This document shows, piece by piece, positions 1,719-7,653 of a stretch of DNA of 34,128 nucleotides. Position 1 is the stretch's first letter; each line of letters starts with the position of its first letter. The translations under genes and the position numbers were made by a program. A model generated the notes under the pieces. The model searched no databases. It saw only the letters and a program-made list of their open reading frames with translations, and was not told the origin of the DNA. The DNA is taken from NCBI RefSeq assembly GCF_007692535.1, contig NZ_REBW01000112.1, positions 1 through 34,128 of the forward strand, written 5' to 3'. Origin of the DNA: Thioalkalivibrio sp. GTDB taxonomy: Bacteria; Pseudomonadota; Gammaproteobacteria; Ectothiorhodospirales; Ectothiorhodospiraceae.

Positions 1719-2786
1719 TCAGGTCCGCTCGTCGATCCACTTTCCGATCGTCGGCGGCACCTCCTTCTGGGCGCGGCCGCTGACGTAGATCCCGATATGC
1801 CCGCCCTTGAAGGAAATCTCGCTGTAGTCCTTGGTACCGACCAGCTTCTTCAGGGCCTTGGAGGCGTCCGGCGGGACCAGGTGGTCCTGCATCGCAAAGA
1901 TATTCAGCACCGGCATCGTCACGTTCTTCAGGTCCACCTCGTGCGGGCCGATCCGCAGTCCTCCCTCGACCAGCTTGTTCTGCTGGTAGAAGTCCTTGAT
2001 GAACTGCCGGTAGGCCTCACCGGCCTGGTCCGGACTGTCGAAAATCCACTTCTCCATGCGCAGGAAGTTCGCCACCTGGTCGGGATTGTCGAGCACGTCC
2101 ACCATGTCGAGATACTTCTGCCCCATCAGCCGGTACGGCTTCAGGTTCAGGAAGGTCCAGTTCAGCATCTCCCCCGGGATGTTGCCCAGGGCTTCCACGG
2201 TCAGGTCGACGTCCAGGTACTTCACCCACTTGGACAGCATGTTGTCCGGGGTCTGGAAATCGACCGGGGTCACCATGGTCACCAGGTTGGCGACCTTGTC
2301 CTGGTGGGTCGCCGCATAGCAGAGGCTGAAGGTCCCCCCCTGGCAGATTCCCAGCAGGTTGATCGCGTCCAGCCGATGCCGTTTCCGGATCACGTCCACG
2401 CAACGGTCCAGGTAGCCGTTGATGTAGTCGTCCAGCGTCAGGTATCGGTCCGAGCGGTCCGGATAGCCCCAATCGACCAGGTAGACGTCCATGCCGGCGT
2501 CCAGCAGGCCCCGGACGGTGGACCGGTCCTCCTGCAGATCCGCCATGTATGGGCGGTTGACGAGCGCGTATACGATCAGAATCGGGACGGTGTTCTGCAC
2601 CACGCTCGCCGGCGCCTGAAAGCGATAGAGCGTCATCTTGTCTTCCTGATAGATGATCTCCTTCGGCGTCACTCCAGTGGTGATGTCGTCGGTGTCCATA
2701 AGGTTCTGGACACCGTGGGTCAATTTGGCCTGGAACTTGGTCAGCTCGTCGAGGGCTTCGTCGGGTCGGATCTGGATCGGGCTCAT
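1719..2786 (-). CDS. phaC: Class III poly(3-hydroxyalkanoate) synthase, PhaC subunit
   Basis: PhaC is the catalytic subunit that polymerises 3-hydroxyacyl-CoA at the granule surface. At 355 aa it has the short class III length rather than the roughly 590 aa of class I. The lipase-like box GICQGG puts the nucleophile at Cys148. The other triad members fit Asp301 (MQDHLVPP) and His330 (FKGGHIGI), each one residue from the numbering of the Allochromatium enzyme. The fold is alpha/beta hydrolase with no signal peptide. The ATG overlaps the phaE stop by 4 bp (ATGA), so the two subunits are translationally coupled, which fits their assembly into one complex. The 3' end runs into a REP-like cluster before purU. 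Identification is secure. Confidence 0.97.
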   Translation of the reverse strand: MSPIQIRPDEALDELTKFQAKLTHGVQNLMDTDDITTGVTPKEIIYQEDKMTLYRFQAPASVVQNTVPILIVYALVNRPYMADLQEDRSTVRGLLDAGMDVYLVDWGYPDRSDRYLTLDDYINGYLDRCVDVIRKRHRLDAINLLGICQGGTFSLCYAATHQDKVANLVTMVTPVDFQTPDNMLSKWVKYLDVDLTVEALGNIPGEMLNWTFLNLKPYRLMGQKYLDMVDVLDNPDQVANFLRMEKWIFDSPDQAGEAYRQFIKDFYQQNKLVEGGLRIGPHEVDLKNVTMPVLNIFAMQDHLVPPDASKALKKLVGTKDYSEISFKGGHIGIYVSGRAQKEVPPTIGKWIDERT

Positions 2787-4042
2787 GACTGGGTCTTCCT
2801 CCGCGTAGTGCTGGGCTTCCGGGTGGTGGTGCTGGCGGTCCGTGCGCGCTTGGGCGCAGCCTTTTTGGCTGTTTCGCCGGCGGCGGGCTTGTCATCGCCC
2901 TTCCCCGCAGTTGCGGACTTCCCCGCGGCTTCCGTCTTGGTTTCGGCATGGGTCTCAGCCTTGGGCGCGGCCTTCGAGGCCATCGCCTTGACCTGCTTGC
3001 GCAACTCCGCCATCTCGGCCCGCAGTTCCTCGACCTCGCTCCCGAGTCCGGCCATTGCGTCCAATTCGGCGCGCATCGACTCGCTCTGCACGCGGAGTCT
3101 CTGGTATTCGGCGCGGGTGTCGTGCAGGCGCCGCTGGACCGTTCCCAGGTCACCACGTGTCGGCATGTTCATGGCCTCCAGCCACTCGTCCACCAACTGC
3201 GCACCCTGGTGTTTGACCGCCATCAACGCATTGACCATGCGCCCGTACCGGCGGGCATACTCATCGGACATCGCGTAATCCGCGTAGACCTCTTCGCAGG
3301 CATCCACCCAGATGTTGAACACCTCGCGGATCGAGTTCACCGGACCGCCTTCCTGCGCCCGATCCTCGAGCCGCTTCTTGAAGGCTTCCATCGAACGGGA
3401 CCCGAGGCCACCGAAGCCGGCCTGGTACTCGCTCATCGCCTGTTCGTATTCAAAGAGCAGGCGGGTGAACTTCTGGTGCTGCTCCTGGGACTCGCGGGCA
3501 TAACCGAGTGCAGGAGCGGACAGCATCCGATCCATCTGTTCGCGCACGTCGGTGGGCCGCTCGACCTCGAAGGCCTTCATGAAGTCGCCCGGGAACGGCA
3601 TCCCGGCCGACATCGTGCGCGACACGGTGTCGAAGGGCAGATCCCAGAAGGCGAGGCCCTGCCGACCGGCCTTGCCCGCCACTGCGGCGAAGGGGTTCAT
3701 TCCCTGGCTGGCGCTGCTGAATGCCTCGGTCATCATCCGCGTCCAGTTCTCCACGATCTGCGTGGTATCGGTGGCCGGATCCATCTTCCCAAGGCCCTCG
3801 GCCATCGAGAAATAACTCTTGCCCAGGTTGACCATCTGCCCGAGCAGGTCCTGCGCGGGCTTGGGTGTAGTCGGCGCAACCGACTTCCACCACTGTTCCA
3901 TCGCATCCGCCCAGGGATTCGCCGAGGCCTTTTGTGCCGGGGTCGCTGCATCGAGGCCGCGGCGGGTCATGTCCATCCATGCGTCCCAATAGCGCCGTTG
4001 TGCTTCCAGCCACTGGTCGCCGGTCGAATCCGAATCAGCCAT
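2783..4042 (-). CDS. phaE: Class III PHA synthase, PhaE subunit, with Ala/Lys-rich C-terminal tail
   Basis: PhaE is the non-catalytic partner needed for full class III synthase activity. The 419-aa protein starts MADSDSTGDQWLEAQRRYW and contains conserved PhaE segments such as FWDLPFDTVSR and the helical region near residues 200-280. Residues of about 295-355 are strongly heptad-like (RLHDTRAEYQRLR, EVEELRAEMAELRKQV) and should form a coiled coil. From about residue 358 to the end the sequence is an unstructured Ala/Lys/Thr/Arg tail (KKAAPKRARTAS, TTTRKPSTTRRKTQS), making it longer than the roughly 350-360 aa I expect for PhaE. This tail resembles the DNA-binding tails of PhaF and PhaM. A good AGGAG site precedes the ATG. 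It is divergent from phaA across 268 bp. Confidence 0.93.
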   Translation of the reverse strand: MADSDSTGDQWLEAQRRYWDAWMDMTRRGLDAATPAQKASANPWADAMEQWWKSVAPTTPKPAQDLLGQMVNLGKSYFSMAEGLGKMDPATDTTQIVENWTRMMTEAFSSASQGMNPFAAVAGKAGRQGLAFWDLPFDTVSRTMSAGMPFPGDFMKAFEVERPTDVREQMDRMLSAPALGYARESQEQHQKFTRLLFEYEQAMSEYQAGFGGLGSRSMEAFKKRLEDRAQEGGPVNSIREVFNIWVDACEEVYADYAMSDEYARRYGRMVNALMAVKHQGAQLVDEWLEAMNMPTRGDLGTVQRRLHDTRAEYQRLRVQSESMRAELDAMAGLGSEVEELRAEMAELRKQVKAMASKAAPKAETHAETKTEAAGKSATAGKGDDKPAAGETAKKAAPKRARTASTTTRKPSTTRRKTQS

Positions 4043-4310: not shown

Positions 4311-5498
4311 ATGAGTGAAGAGATCGTAATCGTCGGTGCCGCACGCACGCCGGTTGGAACCCTGCTGGGTTCACTGGCTGATATCCCCGCAAGCAAGCTC
4401 GGCGCCACAGTCATCCGCAGCTTGCTCGAACGCTCGGGTGTAAAGCCCGAACAGGTGAGCGAGGTCATCCTCGGGCAGGTTCTGACCGGCGCGGCGGGAA
4501 TGAACCCTGCGCGACAGGCCGCTCTCGAGGCAGGCATCCCGCACACGGTTCCGGCGATGACCATCAACAAGGTCTGTGGCTCGGGCCTCAAGGCGGTGCA
4601 TCTGGCCTGGCAGTCGATACGCTGTGGCGATGCGGAGATCGTGGTGGCTGGTGGCCAGGAAAGCATGAGCCTCGCCCCGCATGCCCTGCCCCGCTCGCGT
4701 TCGGGTGTGAAGATGGGTGAGTGGGCAATGAAGGACACCATGATCAACGATGGGCTCTGGTGCGCGATCACTGACGTCCACATGGGCAATACGGCGGAAA
4801 ACATCGCCAGGGAATACGACATCAGCCGCGAGGAACAGGATGCGTTCGCAGCGCAATCGCAGCAGCGCGCCGAGGCGGCGATCCGCGACGGCGTCTTCCG
4901 CGACGAGATCGTCCCGATCGAGATCCCGCAGCGTAAGGGTGACCCCAAGATCTTCGATACCGACGAGTTTCCCCGGGCCGGCGTCACCGCGGAAGGGCTT
5001 GGCAAACTCCGCCCGGCGTTTGCCAAGGATGGAACGGTCACCGCGGCCAACTCGTCCGGAATCAACGACGGCGCGGCTGCGGTCATCGTCATGACTGCGA
5101 GCAAGGCCAAGGAACTCGGGCTGAAGCCCATCGCGCGAATCGTTGCCTTCTCCGCTGCCGGGGTCGATCCATCGATCATGGGGACCGGCCCGATCCCGGC
5201 CACCCGTGACTGCCTCGAAAAGGCCGGCTGGAGCCCCGCAGATCTCGATCTGGTGGAATCCAACGAGGCGTTTGCAGCGCAGGCGATCTCCGTGAACAAG
5301 GCCCTGGGCTGGGATCTGTCCAAGGTCAACGTCAGCGGCGGCGCCATCGCCATCGGGCACCCGATCGGCGCCTCCGGCGCCCGCGTACTGGTCACCCTCC
5401 TGCACGGCATGCGTCGGCGCGACGCCAAACGTGGGCTGGCGACACTCTGCATCGGAGGCGGACAAGGCGTTGCGATGGCCCTCGAACTCGTCGAATAG
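4311..5498 (+). CDS. phaA: Acetyl-CoA acetyltransferase (beta-ketothiolase) PhaA
   Basis: PhaA condenses two acetyl-CoA to acetoacetyl-CoA, the first step of PHB synthesis. The 395-aa sequence has all thiolase signatures: the acyl-accepting Cys89 in [11 protein letters not shown], His350 in [14 protein letters not shown], and the proton-shuttling Cys380 in TLCIGGGQG. Length and motif spacing match the biosynthetic tetrameric thiolases. The ribosome site is AGAGGAGAAGCAGGAG before the ATG. It heads the plus-strand phaA-phaR-phaP-phaB set, divergent from the synthase genes, which supports the phaA name over a fatty-acid-degradation thiolase. A GC-rich hairpin follows the stop. Identification as a thiolase is certain; the PHB role rests on context. 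Confidence 0.96.
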
Positions 5499-5621: not shown

Positions 5622-6125
5622 GTGACCGACCCACGACTGATCAAGAAATACCCGAACCGTCGGCTGTACGACACCGAGGAAAGTCGTTACATCACATTGA
5701 TCGATGTGCAGCGACTGGTGCGCGAAGGGACCGACATCAAGGTCGTGGACACGCAGAGCGGCGATGACATCACCCGCGGCATCCTGATCCAGATCATCAC
5801 CGAGCAGGAGGCTGGCGGCAACCCGCTGTTCACCACCGACATGCTCACCCGCTTCATCCGCTTCTACGACGAATCACTGCAGGACGCCTTCTCCAGTTTT
5901 CTCGATCAAAGCCTGAGGCTTTATTCCGAGCAGCAGGAGCAGATGCGAGCGCAGCTCGACGAGATGGTTCCGGGCGACGCGCTGCAGACCTGGACCGAGT
6001 TGACCGAACGCAACATGGAGCTCTGGCGCGAGATGCAGGACAGCTTTTTCCGCGCGGCCAACCTGCCCGGGATCGGCCGTTCGTCGCAAGCCCAGGAGAA
6101 GTCTGAGGCTGAGCGAAAGAAGTAG
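5622..6125 (+). CDS. phaR: Polyhydroxyalkanoate synthesis repressor PhaR
   Basis: PhaR binds DNA at pha promoters and is released when it binds nascent PHA granules, so phasin is made only when polymer is present. The 167-aa protein has the N-terminal PHB/PHA accumulation regulator domain (residues 4-65, with LIKKYPNRRLYDTEESRYIT). The second conserved region follows at about 70-110 (NPLFTTDMLTRFIRFYDESLQ), then a helical, charged C-terminus ending KSEAERKK. The start is GTG, supported by an AGGGG site 8-10 bp upstream and by family N-termini. It sits between phaA and phaP, as in Allochromatium-type pha loci. A TGC-rich palindrome and repeats downstream are candidate binding sites. Confidence 0.93.
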   Translation: MTDPRLIKKYPNRRLYDTEESRYITLIDVQRLVREGTDIKVVDTQSGDDITRGILIQIITEQEAGGNPLFTTDMLTRFIRFYDESLQDAFSSFLDQSLRLYSEQQEQMRAQLDEMVPGDALQTWTELTERNMELWREMQDSFFRAANLPGIGRSSQAQEKSEAERKK

Positions 6126-6341: not shown

Positions 6342-6370
6342 TTGACATTGCCTGCGGGCTTGCTTATGCT
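6342..6370 (+). promoter_or_regulatory. Strong sigma-70 promoter of phaP
   Basis: A perfect -35 TTGACA (6342-6347) is followed after exactly 17 bp by TATGCT (6365-6370). It lies about 60 bp upstream of the phasin ATG at 6432. This is the best promoter match in the window and fits the high expression typical of phasins. Confidence 0.75.
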
Positions 6371-6393
6371 GCAACGCAACAATGCTGCACTGC
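6366..6393 (+). promoter_or_regulatory. TGC-rich direct repeats overlapping the phaP start region, candidate PhaR operator
   Basis: ATGCTGCA occurs at 6366-6373 and again at 6382-6389 (16-bp period), extended by CTGCAC at 6388-6393. The first copy overlaps the -10 hexamer and the second covers the expected transcription start, so a protein bound here would block RNA polymerase. TGC-rich sites at phaP are the known targets of PhaR in Paracoccus. The repressor gene is immediately upstream. Confidence 0.55.
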
Positions 6394-6431
6394 ACCAAAC
6401 GGGTGTGGTGGCATTTGACGGAGAGATAATC

Positions 6432-6821
6432 ATGCAAAACCAGATGTTCGATGCTTATAATGAAATGGCCCAGAGCAGCTTCGAAGCGATGCGTAAGCTG
6501 GGTGAAATCAACATGCGCGCCACCGAGCGGCTGTTCCAGCAGCAACTGGACCTGACCAACACCATGCTGGAGACCAGCGCCAAGGGTATGGAAGGCACGA
6601 CCAAGGCCAAGGGCTACCAGGAGTTGGTGACCAGCCAGGCCAAGCTGACCCAGGAATACGGTCAGGAGTGGCTGAAGAACTACCGCAGTGCGATTGAAGT
6701 ACTCACCGAGGCACGCGATTCCGCCGCCGACGTGATGGACAAGCAGATGCAGCTCGCCAGCAAGAACATGCAGGAAGCCGGCGAAACCGTGAAGAAGGCG
6801 GCGGCCAAGGCTACCGCGTAA
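6432..6821 (+). CDS. phaP: Phasin (PHA granule-associated protein)
   Basis: This is a 129-residue, all-helical amphipathic protein (MQNQMFDAYNEMAQSSFEAM...) of the phasin_2 type. Phasins coat PHA granules, controlling granule size and number. Conserved features are the aromatic N-terminal helix, the Q-rich central helix (TERLFQQQLDLTNTML), the YGQEWLKNYR segment near residue 80 and a short basic/alanine tail (VKKAAAKATA). The ATG at 6432 is preferred over an in-frame ATG at 6342, because 6342 lies inside the promoter and GGAG sits 8 bp before 6432. phaB follows after 85 bp, probably on the same transcript. Confidence 0.9.
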   Translation: MQNQMFDAYNEMAQSSFEAMRKLGEINMRATERLFQQQLDLTNTMLETSAKGMEGTTKAKGYQELVTSQAKLTQEYGQEWLKNYRSAIEVLTEARDSAADVMDKQMQLASKNMQEAGETVKKAAAKATA

Positions 6822-6906: not shown

Positions 6907-7653
6907 ATGGCTGAACGTATTGCATTAGTGACCGGGGGTATCGGCGGCATCGGATCGGCGATCTGCGTCGAATTGGCTGCCAAGGGCTTCAAGGTCGTCG
7001 CCGGCTATTACCCGGCGGAAAAGGACGACGCCGAGGCTTGGCAGGAAAAGCAGCGGGCTGAAGGCAATGTGTTCGAGATTGCCTCCGGTGACGTCTCCTC
7101 TTTTGAATCCTCCAGCGACATGGTCAAGGACATCGAGGCCCGTATCGGTCCGATCGACGTCCTGATCAACTGCGCCGGGATTACCCGGGACAAGACCTTC
7201 CGCAAGATGGAACCTGACCAGTGGAAGGCGGTTATGGCAACCAACCTCGACAGCCTGTTCAATGTAACGCGCCAGGTCGTCGACGGGATGACCGAACGCG
7301 GCTGGGGACGCATCGTGAACATTTCCTCGGTGAACGGCCAGCGCGGACAGTTCGGCCAGACCAACTATTCCGCGGCGAAGGCCGGGGCGCACGGCTTCAC
7401 CATGGCCCTGGCGCAGGAAGTCGCGCGCAAGGGGGTCACGGTCAACACCGTCTCTCCGGGCTACATCGCCACCGAGATGACCAAGGCCATGGCCGAGGAA
7501 GTCCGGGAACAGATCGTCGCCCAGGTGCCGATGTCACGCATGGGTGAGCCGGATGAGGTCGCCTATCTGGTCGGCGTGCTCTGCGATGATCGCGCCGCAT
7601 ACATCACGGGCGCGAACTACGAGTTGAACGGCGGGCTGTTCATGAGCTTCTGA
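6907..7653 (+). CDS. phaB: Acetoacetyl-CoA reductase PhaB
   Basis: PhaB reduces acetoacetyl-CoA to (R)-3-hydroxybutyryl-CoA with NADPH, supplying monomer to PhaCE. The 248-aa sequence is a classical short-chain dehydrogenase: the cofactor loop is TGGIGGIG (residues 9-16), NCAGI is at 88-92, and the catalytic set is Ser141, Tyr154 and Lys158 (NYSAAKAG). A C-terminal SPGYIATEM substrate-lid segment is present. It opens with GGAGG 6 bp before the ATG. It is the last gene of the plus-strand pha set and is closed by a very strong hairpin. Related FabG reductases share these motifs; the pha context decides the name. Confidence 0.94.
   Translation: MAERIALVTGGIGGIGSAICVELAAKGFKVVAGYYPAEKDDAEAWQEKQRAEGNVFEIASGDVSSFESSSDMVKDIEARIGPIDVLINCAGITRDKTFRKMEPDQWKAVMATNLDSLFNVTRQVVDGMTERGWGRIVNISSVNGQRGQFGQTNYSAAKAGAHGFTMALAQEVARKGVTVNTVSPGYIATEMTKAMAEEVREQIVAQVPMSRMGEPDEVAYLVGVLCDDRAAYITGANYELNGGLFMSF

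Follow-up and report, generated by a model that had tools for sequence, protein, structure and literature searches.

A disordered basic tail on the class III polyhydroxyalkanoate synthase subunit PhaE of Thioalkalivibrio as a putative nucleoid anchor

Results

The phaE-phaC pair and the architecture of PhaE

The window analyzed here is a 34,128-nucleotide stretch of Thioalkalivibrio sp. DNA (assembly GCF_007692535.1, contig NZ_REBW01000112.1, positions 1 to 34,128) that begins with a class III polyhydroxyalkanoate (PHA) cluster, in which phaC and phaE lie on the minus strand and four other genes on the plus strand. We focus on the C-terminus of the synthase subunit PhaE, a disordered tail with a strongly basic tip that may attach the synthase to the nucleoid. 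The features of the phaE-phaC pair, with residues given as amino acids (aa) of PhaE, are:

2783–4042, minus strand: phaE, class III PHA synthase subunit, 419 aa (PF09712 over aa 10–317; TIGR01834)
1719–2786, minus strand: phaC, class III PHA synthase catalytic subunit, 355 aa (TIGR01836, 561.4 bits, cut-off 365.3)
3155–3169, minus strand: codons of NMPTR (aa 292–296), a conserved turn before the long helix (alignment A1)
2972–3157, minus strand: long helix, predicted coiled coil, aa 296–357 (AlphaFold2 model)
2879–2971, minus strand: disordered linker, aa 358–388, about neutral (predicted local distance difference test, pLDDT, below 50; net charge 0 over aa 360–388)
2786–2878, minus strand: disordered basic tip, aa 389–419, net charge +9 (charge count, AlphaFold2 pLDDT)
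2798–2803, minus strand: CGGAGG, encoding R414-R415 of PhaE and probably the Shine-Dalgarno site of phaC, whose ATG follows after 11 bases

PhaE scored 284.8 bits against PF09712 (Pfam cut-off 25.7) and 246.7 bits against TIGR01834 (cut-off 154.95) and adjoins a class III phaC, which it overlaps by ATGA, identifying it as the class III subunit by both profile and neighborhood. No other PF09712 match occurs in the window's genome, and the nearest named records are titled Thioalkalivibrio, with PhaE identity of up to 95%. An AlphaFold2 model built on an alignment of 40 PhaE sequences (mean pLDDT 69.8, predicted template modeling score 0.52) contains a 62-residue helix at aa 296–357 with pLDDT mostly around 90. 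The window's genus has roughly 20–30 additional coiled-coil residues ahead of the tail compared to other genera (alignment A1), corresponding to aa 326–357 in the window (2972–3067, minus strand). We found no solved relative of PhaE, and the fold search was uninformative: among solved structures, a phmmer search with the window PhaE returned only unrelated proteins, all at E ≥ 0.099, a profile of the 40 PhaE sequences gave zero matches at E ≤ 0.1, and Foldseek with the model gave nothing at E ≤ 0.001, its weaker matches being just helical bundles. A phmmer match to histone H2B (E 0.15) was set aside as shared low complexity.

The tail is disordered, with its charge concentrated in the last 31 residues

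The last 62 residues of PhaE (aa 358–419) have pLDDT values below 50 and no predicted secondary structure. This agrees with the boundary proposed in a sequence-only reading of this DNA, which placed a low-complexity basic tail after the coiled coil (2786–2971 plus the stop codon); the motifs quoted there, KKAAPKRAR and TTTRKPSTTRRK, are present. The segment contains 10 Lys, 5 Arg, 2 Asp and 4 Glu residues, giving a net charge of +9 and an isoelectric point of 10.56, in contrast to 5.04 for aa 1–357. The charge is distributed unevenly, with net 0 over aa 360–388 and +9 over aa 389–419. Thus, the description of a strongly basic tail of about 60 residues is right in its low complexity and overall charge, but only about 31 residues (aa 389–419) are strongly basic.

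As a control we used 164 genes of the same genome, called by a simple open-reading-frame and codon-position heuristic in 232,769 bases (the window plus 20 stretches). PhaE had the lowest entropy and the lowest hydrophobic fraction over the last 60 residues of all 164. A net charge of +9 was reached by two genes over the last 30 residues, PhaE included, and by seven over the last 60, whereas a hydrophobic fraction ≤0.12 combined with a last-30 charge of at least +5 was found in PhaE alone. The tail is therefore genuine, with strong charge limited to its last 31 residues; charge by itself is uncommon but not unique, and only the combination with low complexity is unique in this sample.

Basic tails recur among PhaE relatives

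PhaE was found in 30 of 47 family genomes: all 17 from the four other genera have it, against only 13 of the 30 from the window's genus. The net charge of its last 30 residues was at least +3 in 26 of the 30. To the family set we added 60 named loci, a class sample of 276 genomes (50 matching, 48 over cut-off) and a phylum sample of 348 (44 matching, 42 over cut-off). The 175 loci searched yielded 148 distinct PhaE-family C-termini, nearly all from Pseudomonadota, with one record titled Nitrospira; the sample takes in neither cyanobacterial nor haloarchaeal PhaE, and none of the 60 named loci is labeled Allochromatium vinosum, whose PhaE has been studied biochemically. The last-30 net charge was at least +3 in 123 of the 148 and at least +5 in 99, and 108 combined a charge of at least +3 with a hydrophobic fraction ≤0.15 in the last 40 residues. 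As a control we took 85 distinct C-termini of PhaC from loci of the same kind, of which 33 reached +3 and none passed the joint test.

Grouped by gene G+C content (34–78%), the fractions of tails with a charge of at least +3 were 7/9, 25/31, 39/47, 39/42 and 13/19, the first bin lying below 45% and the last above 68% G+C. Lys in the tails falls and Arg rises with increasing G+C, and tail charge does not simply track base composition. Some relatives carry histone-like KKAAAKK tails (L084, with a net charge of +31 in the last 62 residues, and L107). The basic tail is thus kept in composition across PhaE as a general trait, and the idea that it is a peculiarity of this one protein did not hold. 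As a side observation, the basic stretch is followed by a hydrophobic C-terminal cap in three relatives, GMIELKF in L117 and L118 and GMIVIKI in L061.

The last codons of phaE carry a probable phaC ribosome-binding site

The last phaE codons read ACG CGG AGG AAG ACC CAG TCA TGA, with the phaC ATG inside, so that the terminal Arg-Arg-Lys of PhaE corresponds to CGG AGG AAG. CGG AGG is invariant in 13 of 13 distinct PhaE of the window's genus, in which AGG makes up just 14 of the roughly 380 Arg codons in the remainder of the 13 phaE genes, and the Arg codon six codons upstream varies between CGC, CGG and CGT. Across 92 phaE-phaC junctions, Arg-Arg occurred within the last eight residues in 18 of 42 cases in which the best Shine-Dalgarno-like match lay inside phaE and in 0 of 50 otherwise (Fisher p 6e-8); with the genus left out, the counts were 5/29 and 0/50 (p 0.005). 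The caller took the best match even if weak, and several of the matches inside phaE are weak; phaC starts were miscalled in L087, L088 and L091. In 17 of the 18 cases the Arg-Arg codons themselves form the site; in the remaining one (L114) they are CGC CGC beside it. This pattern suggests that the closing Arg-Arg of PhaE is probably conserved as DNA, for phaC translation. The closing TRRK, counted by the sequence-only reading as part of the basic protein tail, is present, but its Arg-Arg is better explained by the ribosome-binding site. The site would account for the terminal Arg-Arg-Lys only, because the last 31 residues without it still carry a net charge of +6. One practical consequence is that simple tail truncations would remove the phaC ribosome-binding site, lower PhaC and mimic a granule defect.

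Some PhaE end in a helix-hairpin-helix-like segment

In five species from two lineages, a helix-hairpin-helix-like segment occupies the place of the basic tail, and in two of them, at L113 and L213 only, it scores over the Pfam cut-off. The PhaE of G084 (L113, 1189–2550, minus strand) matches HHH_5 at its C-terminus with 31.0 bits and that of G652 (L213, 1540–2856, plus strand) with 28.1 bits, the cut-off being 27. The G084 protein scores 218.7 bits against PF09712, is followed by phaC and has a divergent thiolase next to it; the G652 protein is 63% identical to it over query residues 8–452. G210, the third genome searched in the order of these two, gave no match. In another order, 3 of 41 genomes (G182, L153/L231; G689, L215; G688, L216) encode PhaE-like proteins with a C-terminal segment of the same pattern, whose matches to helix-hairpin-helix families stay below the cut-offs. 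The thiolase and phaC neighbors of G652, G689 and G688 were identified by eye. For the window PhaE, helix-hairpin-helix families are absent among the matches at E ≤ 1.

Other candidate tethers in the cluster and in related genomes

The remaining genes of the cluster are:

4311–5498, plus strand: thiolase (phaA-type), divergent neighbor of phaE (PF00108 and PF02803 over cut-off)
5622–6125, plus strand: phaR repressor (TIGR01848, 146.5 bits, cut-off 109.45)
6342–6821, plus strand: phasin, Phasin_2 (PF09361, 59.2 bits; listed from a TTG, which may lie ahead of the true start)
6907–7653, plus strand: short-chain dehydrogenase, phaB-type reductase by context (PF00106, 205.9 bits)

The phasin is the only Phasin_2 match in a search of the window's own genome. 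Profiles for the PhaF type (TIGR01837) and for PhaM (NF043076) gave zero matches in the 47 family genomes. NF043076 is likewise absent among the matches of the window PhaE at E ≤ 1, and the window's genome has no match to it. In the class sample, NF043076 matched 3 of 276 genomes, two over cut-off and none with PhaE, and no control genome had a match; a correlation between PhaM presence and the PhaE tail was dropped, as three genomes are too few to mean anything.

The window PhaE itself reaches only 12.3 bits against TIGR01837 (cut-off 94.7, E 0.14) and is not a PhaF-type phasin by this profile. Matches to TIGR01837 inside PhaE were found in G204 (1.0e-6), G249 (3.3e-5), and G192 and G262 (7e-4), none of which reaches the curated cut-off, and hhalign aligned PhaE around NMPTR with five PhaF-like sequences, caught by pattern from nine loci, at 78.0% probability (E 1.8e-5, 40 columns). 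We treat the likeness to PhaF-type phasins around NMPTR as a weak lead; homology was not adopted in view of the 40 columns, the five PhaF-like sequences and possible coiled-coil bias. Two gammaproteobacterial proteins with weak TIGR01837 matches (L134, L135) carry a long KKA-rich, histone-like stretch N-terminal to the phasin-like part, the reverse of the PhaF order.

Comparison with known granule tethers

PhaM of Ralstonia eutropha (Cupriavidus necator) is described as activating PHA synthase and attaching granules to the nucleoid through a basic C-terminus with PAKKA motifs (PMC9049629). PhaF of Pseudomonas is reported to combine a helical granule-binding part, a coiled coil and a basic, disordered DNA-binding end (PMC5658603, PMC9049629), and the ends of PhaM and PhaF that hold granules to the nucleoid are called histone-like (PMC13052382). 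In PhaH of Caulobacter, a C-terminal helix-hairpin-helix is reported to bind DNA and place granules (PMC13052382). These known tethers all lie outside class III synthases (PMC13052382). PhaM acts on a class I synthase as a protein of its own, whereas PhaE is a standing subunit of the class III enzyme. PhaF resembles PhaE in layout and, weakly, in profile at NMPTR, but it is a phasin and no part of a synthase, and it has a longer end than PhaE, with eight AAKP-like repeats (PMC5658603). PhaH is also a phasin, and its C-terminal module corresponds to that of the G084 and G652 PhaE, not to that of the window PhaE. In Haloferax mediterranei, PhaC, a class III subunit, carries a disordered end and a helix-hairpin-helix whose role is given as not known (PMC12028471), while in the genomes described above the module sits on PhaE.

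The likeness of the PhaE tail to those of PhaM and PhaF, proposed in the sequence-only reading, extends to disorder, basic character and terminal charge: the last 31 residues carry +9, compared to +9 to +12 in two PhaM-like and two PhaF-like proteins from two other lineages. Over the last 62 residues, the charge of +9 is lower than the +10 to +17 of the PhaM-like and PhaF-like proteins. A loose pattern for AAKP/PAKKA-type motifs gives six overlapping four-residue matches in PhaE and the same number in the PhaF-like L128; these are at most candidate repeats. The combination of synthase activation and DNA binding in one protein would be new for PhaE, but the principle is known from PhaM (PMC9049629). 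The role of PhaE is described as unclear in PMC12028471, and among the matches listed in a search of titles and abstracts none linked PhaE to DNA or the nucleoid; subscription journals lie mostly outside that search, so that a report elsewhere is possible.

Discussion

The body of PhaE binds and activates PhaC, as established for the family. We propose, with somewhat more confidence than doubt, that the C-terminus of PhaE is a non-specific nucleoid anchor of the class III synthase that works in a PhaM-like manner. The long helix would project a disordered arm, the basic last ~31 residues would bind chromosomal DNA by charge, and nascent granules would then form on the nucleoid and be shared out with it, as with PhaM for the class I synthase of Ralstonia. 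The proposal is based on the anatomy of the tail, its wide recurrence, its absence from the PhaC control (0/85) and the persistence of its charge across G+C contents, together with the helix-hairpin-helix-like ends, the lack of PhaM-type or PhaF-type matches in the family genomes, the single phasin in the genome and the resemblance at NMPTR. The strongest hint that the end of PhaE binds DNA is by analogy, as the two kinds of module that end the known tethers seem to recur at the C-terminus of PhaE. On the best reading of these comparisons, PhaE would function like PhaM without belonging to the PhaM family. A broader generalization, which we hold tentatively and at somewhat less than even confidence, is that PhaE is PhaM-like family-wide and brings its own anchor through interchangeable C-terminal DNA-binding modules. 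Most of the Pseudomonadota examined would rely on a basic tail and a few on a helix-hairpin-helix, and in haloarchaea the helix-hairpin-helix would be placed on PhaC; polymerization would start on the chromosome and segregation would proceed without a separate tether.

Several observations weigh against the anchor proposal. Absence of the tail in close relatives had been named in the sequence-only reading as a point that would count against a tether; the tail is kept in the window's genus (last-30 net charge at least +7 in 13 of 13), but in Thiorhodospira (L025/L046), where the linker is acidic and the basic tip short, the last-30 net charge is −2, and three Ectothiorhodospira PhaE reach just +2. 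In the full set of 148 C-termini, 25 have a charge below +3, and eight of these are at 0 or below, six of them plainly non-basic and two helix-hairpin-helix-like; the tail is missing from several PhaE (e.g. L068, L119, L145, L147, L148), and in Pseudomonadota of classes other than the window's, many tails carry just a weak charge (+2 to +5). The 148 C-termini are inter-related and phylogenetically uneven, and should not be counted as independent. The second helix-hairpin-helix lineage matches PF09712 weakly (about 40 bits), and its G182 locus L231 has no phaC directly downstream. Finally, TIGR01837 is over cut-off in 7 of the 276 class genomes and co-occurs with PhaE in five of them, which argues against PhaE being a strict replacement for PhaF, with no simple exclusion between the two. 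In three of these five genomes (G056, G192, G287) the TIGR01837 protein has no evident basic tail and PhaE has one (L120, L114, L107), and in G106 and G223 PhaE is short and tailless (L148, L145) and a TIGR01837 protein is present; we take this distribution as suggestive only.

Alternatively, the tail could play no part in tethering and be an arm for polyanions or surfaces in general, engaging RNA, polyphosphate, the acidic surface of PhaC or the granule, or serving solubility. Low complexity, the lack of a motif conserved across genera and the retention of charge as such would all fit this explanation, as does L197, whose tail is among the small number of further low-hydrophobic ones in the genome sample and has an Arg-rich end (net +9 over the last 60 residues), indicating that such tails are not DNA-specific. 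A helix-hairpin-helix-like segment in place of the tail points to nucleic-acid binding more than to solubility, and among granule proteins with tails of this kind the best characterized ones tether to DNA (PMC13052382, PMC5658603). We consider a general arm rather unlikely.

Two further explanations place less weight on the protein. The first is that the closing codons of the tail are conserved mainly at the DNA level, for the ribosome-binding site and overlapping start of phaC that they hold, with the protein sequence there a by-product. This is consistent with the invariance of CGG AGG in the genus despite the rarity of AGG and with the tie between Arg-Arg and a Shine-Dalgarno match inside phaE; it covers the last few codons only, given the charge of +6 that persists without Arg-Arg-Lys, and basic tails persist where the site lies behind the stop codon (e.g. 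L044, L050), so that we consider it improbable as an account of the tail. Slightly more improbable still is neutral drift, in which a C-terminal overhang is filled with Ala, Arg, Lys and Thr by high G+C. The sequence and length of the tail are indeed highly variable, with many indels, and tail charge is weakly correlated with G+C (Spearman 0.22, p 0.006), but 7 of 9 genes below 45% G+C retain the sign of the charge, and the combination of charge and composition is found in none of the 85 PhaC ends of the same loci and in only one of the 164 genes sampled from the window's genome.

If the PhaE tail binds DNA, bacteria with a class III synthase would own a built-in means to place their granules and share them out. 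The recurrent coupling of granule proteins to interchangeable DNA-binding ends would then become a rule, testable by tail swaps.

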